Assembly: GCA_020725405.1 (NCBI GenBank)
Contig: DYFB01000087.1
Coordinates: 1 to 41,691 of the forward strand
Length of the DNA: 41,691 bases
Reading direction: 5' to 3'
Origin: Symbiobacterium sp.
GTDB taxonomy: Bacteria > Bacillota > Sulfobacillia > UBA995 > UBA9673
The notes beneath the pieces were generated by a model. The model did not search any database. It was given only the letters and a program-made list of their open reading frames with translations, and was not told the DNA's origin. The translations under genes were made by a program, and so were the position numbers. Positions within the stretch are counted from its first letter, which is position 1; each line of letters starts with the position of its first letter. This document shows positions 6,244-9,777 of the stretch, one piece after another.

Positions 6244-6333
6244 GGGACTCCCGGCGATAAGGGCAAACCCGTCGAAAGACGGGGACGCAAAGCCTCGGGT
6301 CTAAGGCCGAAGGGCTATGACGGCCGGGCTGCC
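6244..6333 (+). ncRNA. Cyclic di-GMP-I (GEMM-I) riboswitch aptamer
   Basis: All the GEMM-I landmarks are present in order. There is GGGCAAACC, then a perfect hairpin CCCGTC-GAAA-GACGGG with the GNRA loop, then the signature GGGACGCAAAGCC joining segment. The receptor side is GGTCTAAGGCC, followed by a second hairpin arm, and the 3' strand GGCCGGGCTGCC that closes P1. P1 can be drawn between CCCGG at 6250-6254 and CCGGG at 6324-6328. The aptamer binds c-di-GMP in the nascent RNA. It leads rightward into the small peptide and the HD-GYP histidine kinase, so it should link their expression to c-di-GMP level. Confidence 0.93.
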
Positions 6334-6365
6334 GAACCTCACGTCCCAGCCATCGCTTGTCCTTC

Positions 6366-6398
6366 AAGGCAGCCCGCGCCTGACGCGCGGGCTGCCTT
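6366..6398 (+). terminator. Riboswitch expression platform: strong hairpin, likely terminator
   Basis: A perfect 14-bp stem (6366-6379 with 6385-6398) around a 5-base loop. The 5' arm contains GGCAGCCCG (6368-6376), the exact complement of the aptamer's P1 3' strand CGGGCTGCC (6325-6333). The two pairings are mutually exclusive. If c-di-GMP stabilises P1, the hairpin is free to form; without ligand the P1 strand can pair with the hairpin's 5' arm. That predicts an OFF switch. The T tract after the stem is short (TT then GCCG), so termination may be weak or need a factor. Confidence 0.75.
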
Positions 6399-6502
6399 GC
6401 CGCCCTCCGCCGCCCGAGCGACGCCTTGCCCTTCGCGGGACGACCGACCTGCAGGCCCTGCCAGCGCGTGGCAGGTCTGTAGTATGATGGGGGGGATAAT
6501 GG

Positions 6503-6601
6503 ATGAGGCGCATCGTCACGACCCTGCTGTTCATCCTGGCCCTGGCTCTCTCGGCGGCGGCGAACCTCGGGCTCCCGTGGGGGCCCCCGGCTCCGCCCTG
6601 A
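6503..6601 (+). CDS. Predicted 32-residue hydrophobic peptide
   Basis: A small frame missed by length filters. It starts MRRIVTTLLFILALALSAAA, a basic head and one hydrophobic helix, and ends in a Gly/Pro/Trp-rich tail followed by two stops in tandem (TGATGA). Codon third positions are almost all G or C, like the real genes here. A GGGGGGG run lies 7 bases before the ATG. It sits between the riboswitch hairpin and the kinase, 41 bp before the kinase start, so the two are probably co-transcribed. It could be a membrane micropeptide partner of the kinase, a leader peptide, or a small secreted peptide. No family is recognised. Confidence 0.5.
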   Translation: MRRIVTTLLFILALALSAAANLGLPWGPPAPP

Positions 6602-6642
6602 TGAGACGCGCCTAAGCCAGGGGCAAGGCGGGCGGGAGCGGC

Positions 6643-9600
6643 GTGTTAGGGCTAACGTTCAACACCTATAGGACGGTCCTCACGGTTTCGAGCATCATCC
6701 TTATCATCGGGACGTTAGCGACCCTGGGCGGTTGCCCGCCCGCCTTCCTTTTGGCGGCCTTCGTCCTCACCTACGTCGCGGCCGAGTGGTTCCAGGTCGT
6801 CTTTCCGTCCGGGGCGGCCCTGTCCTTCGGCTCGACGGTGACCCTGGCGGCCATCGCCTGGCTCGGCCCGCAAGCAGGTGTTCTTCTCCAGAGCGCCGGG
6901 GCCCTCGCGAGCGGGGTAATCACCCGGACGCCGGCGGTCCGCCTCGCGGAGAACTTCTCGAACTACGTCCTTTCGGCCGCCGGAGCCGCCCTCGTCTACA
7001 GGGCTCTCGGCGGGGCTCCCGGGCAGGCCCCCGGAAGCGGGATGCCGGCCCTGGCACTTTCCATCGTCACCCTCTGCGCCGCGCAGGCTCTCTTCACCGC
7101 CCTGGCTCTCAGCCTCTACAAGGTCCGGCCTCTCTGGGCCTGCCTCAGGGACTTGGGGGGCCTGTCCCTGCTCCTGTCTCTCGGGGCCGCGTCTCTCTCC
7201 ATCCCTTTCCTCTGGGGCCTCGAGGTGTTCGGCCCTTCGACCGCGCTGGTCGCCACGGTGGTGGTCATCGTCCTGGCCTCGAGCGTGTCGCGGGTGGCCG
7301 CCCTGCGGTCTCAGCGCCGGGCCCTGACCCGTCTCTTGCCCCTCGCCCCGGCGCCGCAGACCGGAGTGTCCGACCGCGCGGAGGCGCTCTTCAGTCTCGT
7401 CTCCGCCCTGGCCTCGGCCGCGGGCCTCCCCGTCGAGGAGGCCGAGGCCCTGCAGAACGCGGCCCTCCTCCACGACGCCGGCTTCACCGAAACGGACGCT
7501 CAGGCCGCCGCGAGCCAGGACCCCCTGACGCCCGAACAGCTCCGGAAGATACGAGAGCACCCCCGCCGGGCGGCAATGCGGGTGGGCGAGGTCGGGAACC
7601 TCCTGTGGGTGGCGAGGATTCTCGAGACCCATCACGAGCACTACAACGGGTGGGGGTACCCTTTCGGGCTGAAGGGGGACGAGATACCGCTGCCCGCGGC
7701 TCTCCTGGGGTTGGCCGAAGCCTACCTGGCCCTCACTACCCCGCGGCCCTACCGGACCGGGACGAGGAGTCCCCAGCAGACCGTGGAGTACCTGAGAGCC
7801 CACAGCGGCGAGCAGTTCCATCCGGCCGCCGTCGCCGCCATCGAGAAGCTCCTGGAGTCCGGGGCTCTCGAACGGCTGGATACCCCGGGTGCTTCCCGCC
7901 TGGTCGAGGAGGCCGTGTCCCGGCTTAGACGGGCCAAGGAGCTGCCTGGCCTGCCGGGGAGGCCTTTCCCCGAGGCGACGCCGCGGGGTTTCTGGCTCGC
8001 CCCGGTCTGGAGGACCCGCTGGCTCCTCGCGCGGCTCTTCTCGCCGTGGACCGCGGTTCAGGTCCTCCACCGGACGAGCGATTGGTACCGCAGCCTCTAC
8101 GAGCTCGGGCAGGTCTTCAGCTCTTCGCTCGACCTCGGGGACATCGCCCGCCATCTCTCGCAGGCCGTCCACAACCTGACCACCCTCCCGTGCGAGGTCT
8201 GCCTGGTCCAGGAGGACGGCGAGACGCTGTCGCCGGTGGCCTCTCTGGGCCTGCCGCCCGGGGCCACGGCCGGCCTCACCCGGAAGGTCAACCGGGGACT
8301 CACCGGGGTCGCCTTCGCCGAATCACGGCCCGTCGTCTCCCTGGACATGTCGAACGACCCGCGGGCGCTCCAACCGGACAAGGTCAGGGAGCTCGGTCTG
8401 AAATCCTACATGGTCGTCCCCCTGGCCGTCGCCGGCACGCCTCTCGGGACCATTTCGGTGTACTCGCCTGCCGTCGAGCGGTTCTCTCCCGCCGAGTCCG
8501 AGATTCTCACGGCCGTAGCCAACCTCGCCGCGCTCACCCTCCAGAACGCGGTCCTCTACGCCAAGGCCTCCGACCGCCTGGTGGAGCTCATCGAGACCCA
8601 GTCGTTCCTGAGGACGGTCCTCAACACGGCGCCCATCGGCATTCTGACCCTGGACGCCCGGGGCCGGCTGTCGCTGGCTAACCGCGTGGCCTATCATTAT
8701 CTCGAGACTCTCGGTCTCGAGGCCGGGAGCGGGGGCGTCGGGAAAGGAGGCGGGGCTCGGGACGGAAACGGGGCCGGGGGAGCCGGGCAGGGCGATTTGG
8801 CCGAGGGGCTGCGGGCCCGGCTGGGCTTCGAGCTTCGCGGGGCGTCGTCGGCCGGAGGCGAGGTCGCCGGACCCGAGACGGTGCGGGTGGCTGGGACGGG
8901 CGGGGACCGCTTCTTCCAGGTGTGGGTCGCGCCGCTCGGCGACACCCGCAGGGAGAGGGCGGGCGGGCTCCTGGTCATACTGAACGACGTGAGCGCGGCC
9001 AAGAAACTCGAGGCCGAGGCCTCCCGCAACGAACGTCTGGCTGCCGCGGGCGAGATGGCCGCCCGGGCCGCTCACGAGATTCGCAACCCGCTGACGTCTC
9101 TGCAGGGCTTCGCCCAGCTTCTACGTCTCTACTGTCCGGTGAGGGACCAGTGGGGCGAGTGCTCGACCTTCATCGACCGAATCAGGGAGGAGGTCGAGCG
9201 CCTGGACGAGATAGTCGAGTCCATGCTCGTCCTCGCCCGCCCGGCCTGCCCCGACATCACCCGAGGGGACCTTTCTCTCCCGGTGCTGGAGGTCGTCAGC
9301 GGCTACGCCGGCCGGGCGGCCGAACTCGCGACGGTGCTCGAAGGACCGGTTGAACCCGGGGGAGTGACGGCCTACTTCGACTCCCGCCAGATACGGCAGG
9401 TCTTGATGAACCTCATCCAGAACGCCCTCGACGCCGTGTCCGGGCCGGGGGGGCCGCCGCCCGGCCAGCGGCGCGTCGTTGTCTCCGTGGGCTTCCGGCG
9501 ACGAAGCGGCCGCCGATTGGCCTGCGTCAGGGTCAGGGACAACGGGCCGGGCCTGCCGCCCGGGGACGAAGCCCAGATTTTCACGCCCTTTTTCACCACC

Positions 9601-9777
9601 AAGGACGGAGGCACGGGCCTGGGGCTGGCGGTCTCCAAGGGCATCGTCGAGGCCCACGGGGGAGCCATCGAGGTCCGGCCGACCCGAGGTCCCGGGACGG
9701 TCTTCGAGGTCCTCCTCCCGACGTCGTCGACCCGCGCTCCCGGTGCCTGGCGACGCCCGTCCCCCCGGGAAGGGTAG
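6643..9777 (+). CDS. Membrane histidine kinase with HD-GYP, GAF and PAS domains
   Basis: A 1044-residue sensor. Residues about 1-220 hold several hydrophobic helices, a MASE-like membrane input unit. Residues about 240-420 are an HD-GYP domain: LLHDAG with H277 and D278, REHP, THHEH with H330 and H331, GWGYP at 337-340, then LKGDEIPLPA and RPYRTG. The Lys of HDIGK is Phe here (F281) and the usual VAD is LAE, so metal binding may persist while phosphodiesterase activity is doubtful. A GAF domain (about 485-645) and a PAS domain (about 655-785, with a Gly-rich insert) follow. Then come HisKA with the phospho-acceptor H811 in AAHEIRNPL, and an HATPase domain with N box, DNGPGLP and GTGLGLA. No response regulator is adjacent. 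GTG 6643 follows GGGAG. The gene lies downstream of the c-di-GMP riboswitch. Confidence 0.92.
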   Translation: MLGLTFNTYRTVLTVSSIILIIGTLATLGGCPPAFLLAAFVLTYVAAEWFQVVFPSGAALSFGSTVTLAAIAWLGPQAGVLLQSAGALASGVITRTPAVRLAENFSNYVLSAAGAALVYRALGGAPGQAPGSGMPALALSIVTLCAAQALFTALALSLYKVRPLWACLRDLGGLSLLLSLGAASLSIPFLWGLEVFGPSTALVATVVVIVLASSVSRVAALRSQRRALTRLLPLAPAPQTGVSDRAEALFSLVSALASAAGLPVEEAEALQNAALLHDAGFTETDAQAAASQDPLTPEQLRKIREHPRRAAMRVGEVGNLLWVARILETHHEHYNGWGYPFGLKGDEIPLPAALLGLAEAYLALTTPRPYRTGTRSPQQTVEYLRAHSGEQFHPAAVAAIEKLLESGALERLDTPGASRLVEEAVSRLRRAKELPGLPGRPFPEATPRGFWLAPVWRTRWLLARLFSPWTAVQVLHRTSDWYRSLYELGQVFSSSLDLGDIARHLSQAVHNLTTLPCEVCLVQEDGETLSPVASLGLPPGATAGLTRKVNRGLTGVAFAESRPVVSLDMSNDPRALQPDKVRELGLKSYMVVPLAVAGTPLGTISVYSPAVERFSPAESEILTAVANLAALTLQNAVLYAKASDRLVELIETQSFLRTVLNTAPIGILTLDARGRLSLANRVAYHYLETLGLEAGSGGVGKGGGARDGNGAGGAGQGDLAEGLRARLGFELRGASSAGGEVAGPETVRVAGTGGDRFFQVWVAPLGDTRRERAGGLLVILNDVSAAKKLEAEASRNERLAAAGEMAARAAHEIRNPLTSLQGFAQLLRLYCPVRDQWGECSTFIDRIREEVERLDEIVESMLVLARPACPDITRGDLSLPVLEVVSGYAGRAAELATVLEGPVEPGGVTAYFDSRQIRQVLMNLIQNALDAVSGPGGPPPGQRRVVVSVGFRRRSGRRLACVRVRDNGPGLPPGDEAQIFTPFFTTKDGGTGLGLAVSKGIVEAHGGAIEVRPTRGPGTVFEVLLPTSSTRAPGAWRRPSPREG

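Follow-up and report, generated by a model that had tools for sequence, protein, structure and literature searches.

A predicted c-di-GMP-I riboswitch, a candidate micropeptide gene and a histidine kinase with an eroded HD-GYP domain in Symbiobacterium sp.

What does a cyclic di-GMP (c-di-GMP) riboswitch control when the large gene behind it encodes a membrane histidine kinase with an HD-GYP domain of its own? The question is raised by positions 6244-9777 of a 41,691-nucleotide (nt) stretch of Symbiobacterium sp. DNA (contig DYFB01000087.1, forward strand), here called the window; G000 denotes its genome and other G numbers denote related genomes. A preliminary description, made from the letters of the window, had proposed that the messenger sets the amount of kinase made and possibly also its activity. 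We favor another answer, in which the riboswitch, an unannotated micropeptide gene and an orphan membrane histidine kinase would form one transcription unit, c-di-GMP acting as an OFF switch on the micropeptide-kinase unit and the peptide modulating the kinase or being sensed by it. We give this whole chain a probability of about 0.5.

The gene that stands first behind the switch is a micro-open reading frame (micro-ORF) between the switch hairpin and the kinase, which the preliminary description did not see:

6503-6601, plus strand: micro-ORF of 32 residues, MRRIVTTLLFILALALSAAANLGLPWGPPAPP, read from the sequence, with the G-run at 6488-6494 as Shine-Dalgarno sequence
6643-9777, plus strand: membrane histidine kinase of 1044 residues, with a GTG start

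Its product is predicted to be of signal-peptide or transmembrane (TM) type and ends in a Pro-Trp tail. Related genomes encode peptides at the same place, among others MRIIKGLLFTLVLVLAALADVGFPWGPPPNP (G002), MRKVLGSLLLLVLLGIAAAGNFGFPWPF (G005), MRKLFLVLVVVMLGVCASSNLGFPWW (G004), MARVLKVAVPLALVAIFALSAAAQSNWPW (G040), MKNLLRALVTLALLALAGGAWINWPW (G050) and MRRTWLLILALTVLARLAGAQMTWPP (G018). These peptides have 25-35 residues, with a basic start, a hydrophobic core, an end of small residues and an aromatic-Pro or Pro-Trp tail (for example NLGLPWGPPAPP); by eye, most members have an Ala-x-Ala-like end ahead of the tail. Of 19 orthologues sharing the fused kinase architecture, 16, spread over eight families, have the micropeptide upstream, usually 14-66 nt from the kinase (the distance in G018 is 165 nt, that in Thermaerobacter-like genomes 320-415 nt). 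When all fetched DNA (1.38 Mb, both strands counted, partly redundant) was scanned for ORFs of this make-up, 15 of 17 distinct matches fell directly upstream of this kinase, a figure that gauges specificity rather than discovery because the motif was fixed after the first peptides were known. A stricter scan of a smaller DNA set placed 15 of 16 matches there, and no micropeptide was found by the make-up scan in front of the sampled genes for free-standing TM-HD-GYP proteins.

We also compared codons. In the family of G031, G050 and G062, two of the three pairwise comparisons, which are not independent, each showed 8 synonymous changes among 9 differing codons (P about 2e-4). The micro-ORF thus appears to be coding and conserved beside the kinase, as a small-protein regulator of the MgrB kind would be, on the strength of its presence at 16 of 19 orthologues and the synonymous bias in one family. 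It is very likely a real gene, and the kinase probably has an unannotated peptide partner, which would reside in the membrane or outside the cell and would act on the kinase.

Upstream of the micro-ORF, the candidate switch consists of three elements:

6244-6347, plus strand: c-di-GMP-I (GEMM-I) riboswitch aptamer with extended P1, core at 6252-6337 (RF01051, RF03167, constrained fold)
6325-6376, plus strand: anti-terminator pairing of 6325-6333 CGGGCTGCC with 6368-6376 GGCAGCCCG
6366-6398, plus strand: terminator-like hairpin, AAGGCAGCCCGCGC-CTGAC-GCGCGGGCTGCCTT, -31 kcal/mol

The full GEMM-I aptamer announced in the preliminary description is borne out by a full-length match to the Rfam model RF01051 (90.3 bits against a cut-off of 35, E 9.8e-19, 6252-6336 on the plus strand, model positions 1-87), the sole copy in the G000 genome. 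Its start had been placed at 6244, correctly, and this is accounted for by an extended P1 that pairs GGGAC at 6244-6248 with GTCCC at 6343-6347 in the aptamer-constrained fold. The clan sibling RF03167 (c-di-GMP-I-GGC) matches the same site in cmscan with 77.8 bits, below the score of the parent; the GGC variant was ruled out, as the aptamer core reads GACGCAAAG, the ordinary c-di-GMP-I letter, and the RF03167 consensus reads GACGCGAA. Judged by its sequence, 6252-6337 is almost certainly a c-di-GMP-I riboswitch aptamer. Rfam gave no other known riboswitch or RNA family near the micro-ORF, even with the E limit relaxed to 5 for the window and to 3 for four relatives. Three GGDEF matches in the G000 genome, of which at least one retains its GGEEF motif intact, support a predicted ability to make the messenger.

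The competing hairpin that had been described is present at 6366-6398, in exclusive competition with a 9-base-pair (bp) anti-terminator. The latter consists of perfect pairs, a length equaled in 0.4% of shuffles, and is incompatible both with the 3' strands of aptamer P3 and P1 and with the 5' arm of the hairpin. In transcripts ending at 6380-6385 the anti-terminator is the free-energy minimum (-59.0 to -60.1), compared with -44.7 to -46.2 for the same prefixes when the aptamer is enforced and ligand energy is not counted. At 6400, where the whole hairpin has been transcribed, its combination with the aptamer (-73.8) beats the anti-terminator (-67.7). With the mutually exclusive pairing of 6325-6333 and 6368-6376 and these prefix energies, the region has the makings of an RF01051 expression platform. 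As the ligand would stabilize the aptamer, the platform geometry is that of an OFF switch, and c-di-GMP would be expected to lower expression. G050 and G062 carry GC hairpins at the homologous positions, followed by T-rich tracts; in G000, a terminator scan returned no site at 6366-6398.

An HD-GYP domain fused into a histidine kinase under a c-di-GMP switch had been taken for an unusual architecture. A search of related genomes for the same domain order did not sustain this: about 19 genomes of the class encode the fused kinase, and GEMM-I stands ahead of it in four of them (G000, G031, G050 and G062), which belong to two lineages. In the last three, GEMM-I lies 250-300 nt before the peptide-kinase pair and is followed by terminator hairpins and then T-rich tracts. 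On the tree, in which family relations are otherwise poorly resolved and the placement of G018 was disregarded, the carriers (G000 and the f26 trio G031/G050/G062) are not sisters; two changes are needed, so the kinase riboswitch was gained twice or often lost.

GEMM-I is common in the class at large (55 of 61 genomes). In the two sampled genomes of the sister family (G004, G006; L085 2107-2191, L086 1323-1408) it precedes what by eye reads like flagellar flgB and its operon. G031 and G050 (L083 2345-4943, L088 2236-4830) also have it before GAF-GGDEF-HD-GYP proteins, where c-di-GMP would control its own enzymes.

Does the switch govern the kinase, as had been proposed? An aptamer with switch geometry does lie upstream, but direct control of the kinase is not supported: the first gene is the micro-ORF, and a second RNA structure follows. 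A promoter between the hairpin and 6643, named in the preliminary description as what would uncouple the kinase from the switch, may also be present. Five genomes (G000, G002, G031, G050, G062) share the position of a TATGAT/TATAAT box just ahead of the micro-ORF, and G002 has its box though it lacks the riboswitch. Micropeptide and kinase could then be transcribed from a promoter of their own at this point, the riboswitch stopping stray transcription only and c-di-GMP hardly affecting the kinase. We regard this as rather unlikely, since the boxes are not evident in the remaining orthologues and scans in either direction, judged insensitive, found neither a -35 partner nor a sigma-70 consensus pair.

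The second RNA structure encloses the micro-ORF, and its 10-bp complement had likewise gone unseen:

6422-6630, plus strand: long-range helix around the micro-ORF, formed by 6422-6431 CGCCTTGCCC and 6621-6630 GGGCAAGGCG

The pair probability is 0.99-1.0 at nine of its ten pairs, but alone the G000 helix is weak (7 of 200 shuffles; at least 10 pairs at 3.6% of random genomic places, not significant). G062, G050, G031, G005 and G004 have perfect counterparts of 11-13 bp, most pairs of which are predicted with a probability near 1; at random places in the same DNA, at least 11 pairs occur in 1% and at least 12 in 0.4%. In all six genomes the 5' arm of the helix lies ahead of the micro-ORF and the 3' arm in the spacer that separates it from the kinase, 8-19 nt past the micro-ORF stop codon; T-rich tracts stand behind this 3' arm in G004, G031, G050 and G062. 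The helix was not found in G008, G015, G040 and G068. Its role may be in attenuation or in closing the micropeptide mRNA.

Such a helix invites the reading of the micro-ORF as a cis-acting leader peptide of the TnaC or Erm type, in which a ribosome at the stop codon would set the fate of the helix (termination, or a hidden kinase start) and the finished peptide would have no function. The 10-13-bp helix over the ORF in six genomes, the position of its 3' arm, the T-rich tracts and the 1% chance rate for 11 or more pairs all speak for attenuation, and WPP, GPPAPP and PWW tails resemble ribosome-stalling endings. Yet the four genomes without the helix keep the peptide, 14-45 nt from the kinase, and in Thermaerobacter-like genomes the kinase is more than 300 nt away. 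A leader peptide would also have no need for a signal-peptide-like N-terminus, and a chain of 25-35 residues would still be within the exit tunnel at the stop codon. We consider this explanation unlikely. The closed mRNA fold, together with a Shine-Dalgarno sequence that is hidden in the f26 family by pairing with codons 3-6, would also suit a type I toxin-like gene for a small hydrophobic peptide that adjoins the kinase by chance. This is highly improbable given the link to one kinase across eight families, a composition that is signal-peptide-like rather than of the membrane-spanning toxin type, and the absence of any known antisense RNA.

Further RNA features surround the micro-ORF in relatives. 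At L076, L079 and L080 its Shine-Dalgarno sequence pairs with codons 3-6 of the same ORF, and a hairpin ending in TGGTATAATCAGG lies just upstream in all three genomes. The Thermaerobacter-like loci L074, L077 and L078 share a conserved block (CATCAAA ... GGTGTAAAG) inside the 320-415-nt gap between micropeptide and kinase, for which no Rfam match at the gathering cut-off was found.

We then turned to the kinase itself, whose domain order had been described correctly:

6643-7344, plus strand: N-terminal six-helix-type membrane domain, residues 1-234, resembling ECF S-components (AlphaFold, Foldseek)
7366-7824, plus strand: HD-GYP domain, residues 242-394 (PF13487, HD_5, 89 bits; five of seven metal ligands)
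8131-8541, plus strand: GAF domain (PF01590, 58.9 bits)
8605-9003, plus strand: degenerate PAS domain, limits approximate (PAS_8, 17.6 bits, below the 21.8 cut-off)
9049-9240, plus strand: HisKA domain with the AAHEIRNPL phosphoacceptor motif (PF00512, 52.5 bits; H811, invariant in 19 sequences)
9379-9723, plus strand: HATPase_c domain with intact N, D-x-G-x-G, F and G boxes (PF02518, 86 bits)

The PAS domain falls short of its cut-off here and is clear, as PAS_4, in the orthologues of G002, G050, G004 and one Thermaerobacter-like genome. The residues expected of a histidine kinase (H811, N923, N927, D966, G968, G970, G992 and G994) are invariant in 19 relatives. The AlphaFold model of the membrane domain and HD-GYP has a mean predicted local distance difference test score of 89.2 and matches solved HD-GYP domains; Foldseek aligns its membrane part with the ECF S-component TmRibU (E 0.01-0.07; TM-score, by target length, as high as 0.62). 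NCBIfam gave the kinase no equivalog up to cut-off (the KinD model reached 106 of 775 bits), and a short-pattern search of the contig collection for kinase relatives returned only a distant Shimia histidine kinase domain. None of the five neighboring proteins scanned contains a response regulator domain; Spo0A is present elsewhere in the genome.

For the HD-GYP domain, the preliminary description had cited hydrolysis of c-di-GMP as the known activity of such domains and had proposed a two-level circuit. An active form of this circuit, in which the riboswitch sets the kinase level and the HD-GYP domain as phosphodiesterase provides feedback, is not supported. Measured against the metal ligands H189, H221, D222, H250, H276, H277 and D305 (PmGH numbering), the G000 kinase keeps five of seven, with R in place of H189 and E in place of D305; the lysine of HDxGK is F, and the GYP motif is retained as GWGYPFGL. 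Several fused orthologues are more eroded. Among the fused orthologues, all seven ligands are found only in G005 and G018, and the other riboswitch-bearing members (G031, G050, G062) have three of seven, so catalysis is not the conserved trait of that group. By comparison, 17 of 20 sampled free-standing TM-HD-GYP relatives are intact, which makes c-di-GMP hydrolysis by the G000 kinase doubtful. Beyond the class, the sampled genomes showed the free-standing form only; the fused kinases therefore seem to be a derived form, specific to the class, that has mostly lost catalysis. The nearest solved HD-GYP structures are 4mcw, 9rbz (c-di-GMP-bound) and 4r8z. Some HD-GYP domains bind without turnover, and the domain studied here could still bind c-di-GMP. 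The real aptamer, the retained HD, HP, HHE and GYP motifs and the GEMM-I copies before GGDEF-HD-GYP proteins in G031 and G050 would fit the two-level circuit, but the lost ligands and lysine, and the 3/7 ligands of the riboswitch-bearing fused members, make it quite improbable.

We therefore return to the micropeptide-kinase unit under a c-di-GMP OFF switch. As sequence and folds suggest, the c-di-GMP-bound aptamer would outcompete the anti-terminator, favor the downstream hairpin and lower read-through. Comparative genomics shows that the predicted first product, a peptide of 25-35 residues, belongs with this kinase. The peptide would enter or cross the membrane and set kinase activity via the S-component-like domain, either as a bitopic regulator or as a cleaved, short secreted signal. 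The eroded HD-GYP domain would serve as sensor or linker, which may bind c-di-GMP but probably does not turn it over, and the orphan kinase might feed a distant regulator, conceivably Spo0A. High c-di-GMP would switch off peptide and kinase together. We put forward only tentatively a more specific version, in which an exported aromatic-Pro/Pro-Trp peptide is sensed by the S-component-like domain of the orphan kinase, the latter having arisen by fusion of a TM-HD-GYP protein with a GAF-PAS-histidine kinase, and in which the riboswitch placed before the pair in two lineages lets the messenger gate both sending and receiving of the peptide.

Several observations weigh against this proposal. The riboswitch is confined to 4 of the 19 orthologues. 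It is missing from the closest relative, G002, in which peptide and kinase are both present, and is therefore not essential to the peptide-kinase unit. The hairpin at 6366-6398 lacks a U-tract in G000, GCCGCCC coming next, and a promoter just upstream of the micro-ORF is possible. The micropeptide was not seen in G006, G019 and G025 (for G019 in 126 nt of upstream sequence only), the motif of the make-up scan was set post hoc from the first peptides, and the codon evidence is strong in one family only, divergent peptide pairs being uninformative in the synonymous/non-synonymous test. The likeness of the membrane domain to S-components is modest.

The surroundings of the unit differ between genomes. 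In most relatives the gene directly after the kinase, as read from its sequence, encodes a UvrD/PcrA-like helicase (L066, L067, L070-L074; G005, G004, G006, G019, G032, G040, G049); in the window its place is taken by a glycoside hydrolase of family 4. Near the start of the window, the ORF at 10-390 contains several near-identical PPAVDAAPPDGTA repeats, an apparent expansion of repeats within the C-terminal portion of the gene that precedes a purN-purH fusion. The latter, at 393-2675, is a single-frame ORF of 760 residues uniting what read as PurN and PurH.

Annotation seldom includes micropeptides beside sensor kinases, and for the present one the partner is clear and can be tested. Should the peptide act on the kinase, the two would form a new peptide-kinase pair in a whole class of Firmicutes related to spore-formers, and HD-GYP would exemplify an enzyme domain turned into part of a sensor after fusion; the riboswitch cases would tie c-di-GMP to the making of peptide and receptor alike. 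Literature searches returned no description of the micropeptide-kinase pair, an absence that is not proof; the pair is new as far as searchable, while the riboswitch and the kinase architecture add new members to known kinds.

With other RF01051 riboswitches, the aptamer shares the full P1-P3 structure, the GAAA tetraloop region, the conserved core and an alternative pairing with a downstream hairpin. The differences are a hairpin that has no U-tract, an unannotated micro-ORF as first gene and then a second, long-range RNA structure; for Bc1, a long GEMM-I expression platform containing two terminators has been described (PMC11218506). The free-standing TM-HD-GYP proteins of the same phylum (about 430-490 residues), the nearest relatives outside the class, share the order of membrane domain and HD-GYP but are without GAF-PAS-HisKA-HATPase and without the micropeptide, and their ligands are usually intact (17 of the 20 sampled). 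A short pre-peptide beside a polytopic membrane kinase is also found in the pheromone-kinase pairs ComC-ComD, AgrD-AgrC and ComX-ComP, whereas here a response regulator, exporter and processing enzyme were not seen in the neighborhood. The ComC, AgrD and ComX systems have a double-Gly or amphipathic leader and another kinase subfamily, and the leader here is signal-peptide-like. MgrB acts on the sensor kinase PhoQ, and its C-terminal substitution W47A reduces MgrB function (PMC8404706). With MgrB-PhoQ, and also SafA and MzrA, the candidate micropeptide has in common a basic N-terminus, a single hydrophobic segment and, on the outside, a short tail with a terminal Trp, that of MgrB being functionally important. 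The MgrB gene lies apart from phoQ, and its product, of 47 residues, contains cysteines; the likeness is one of working principle only.

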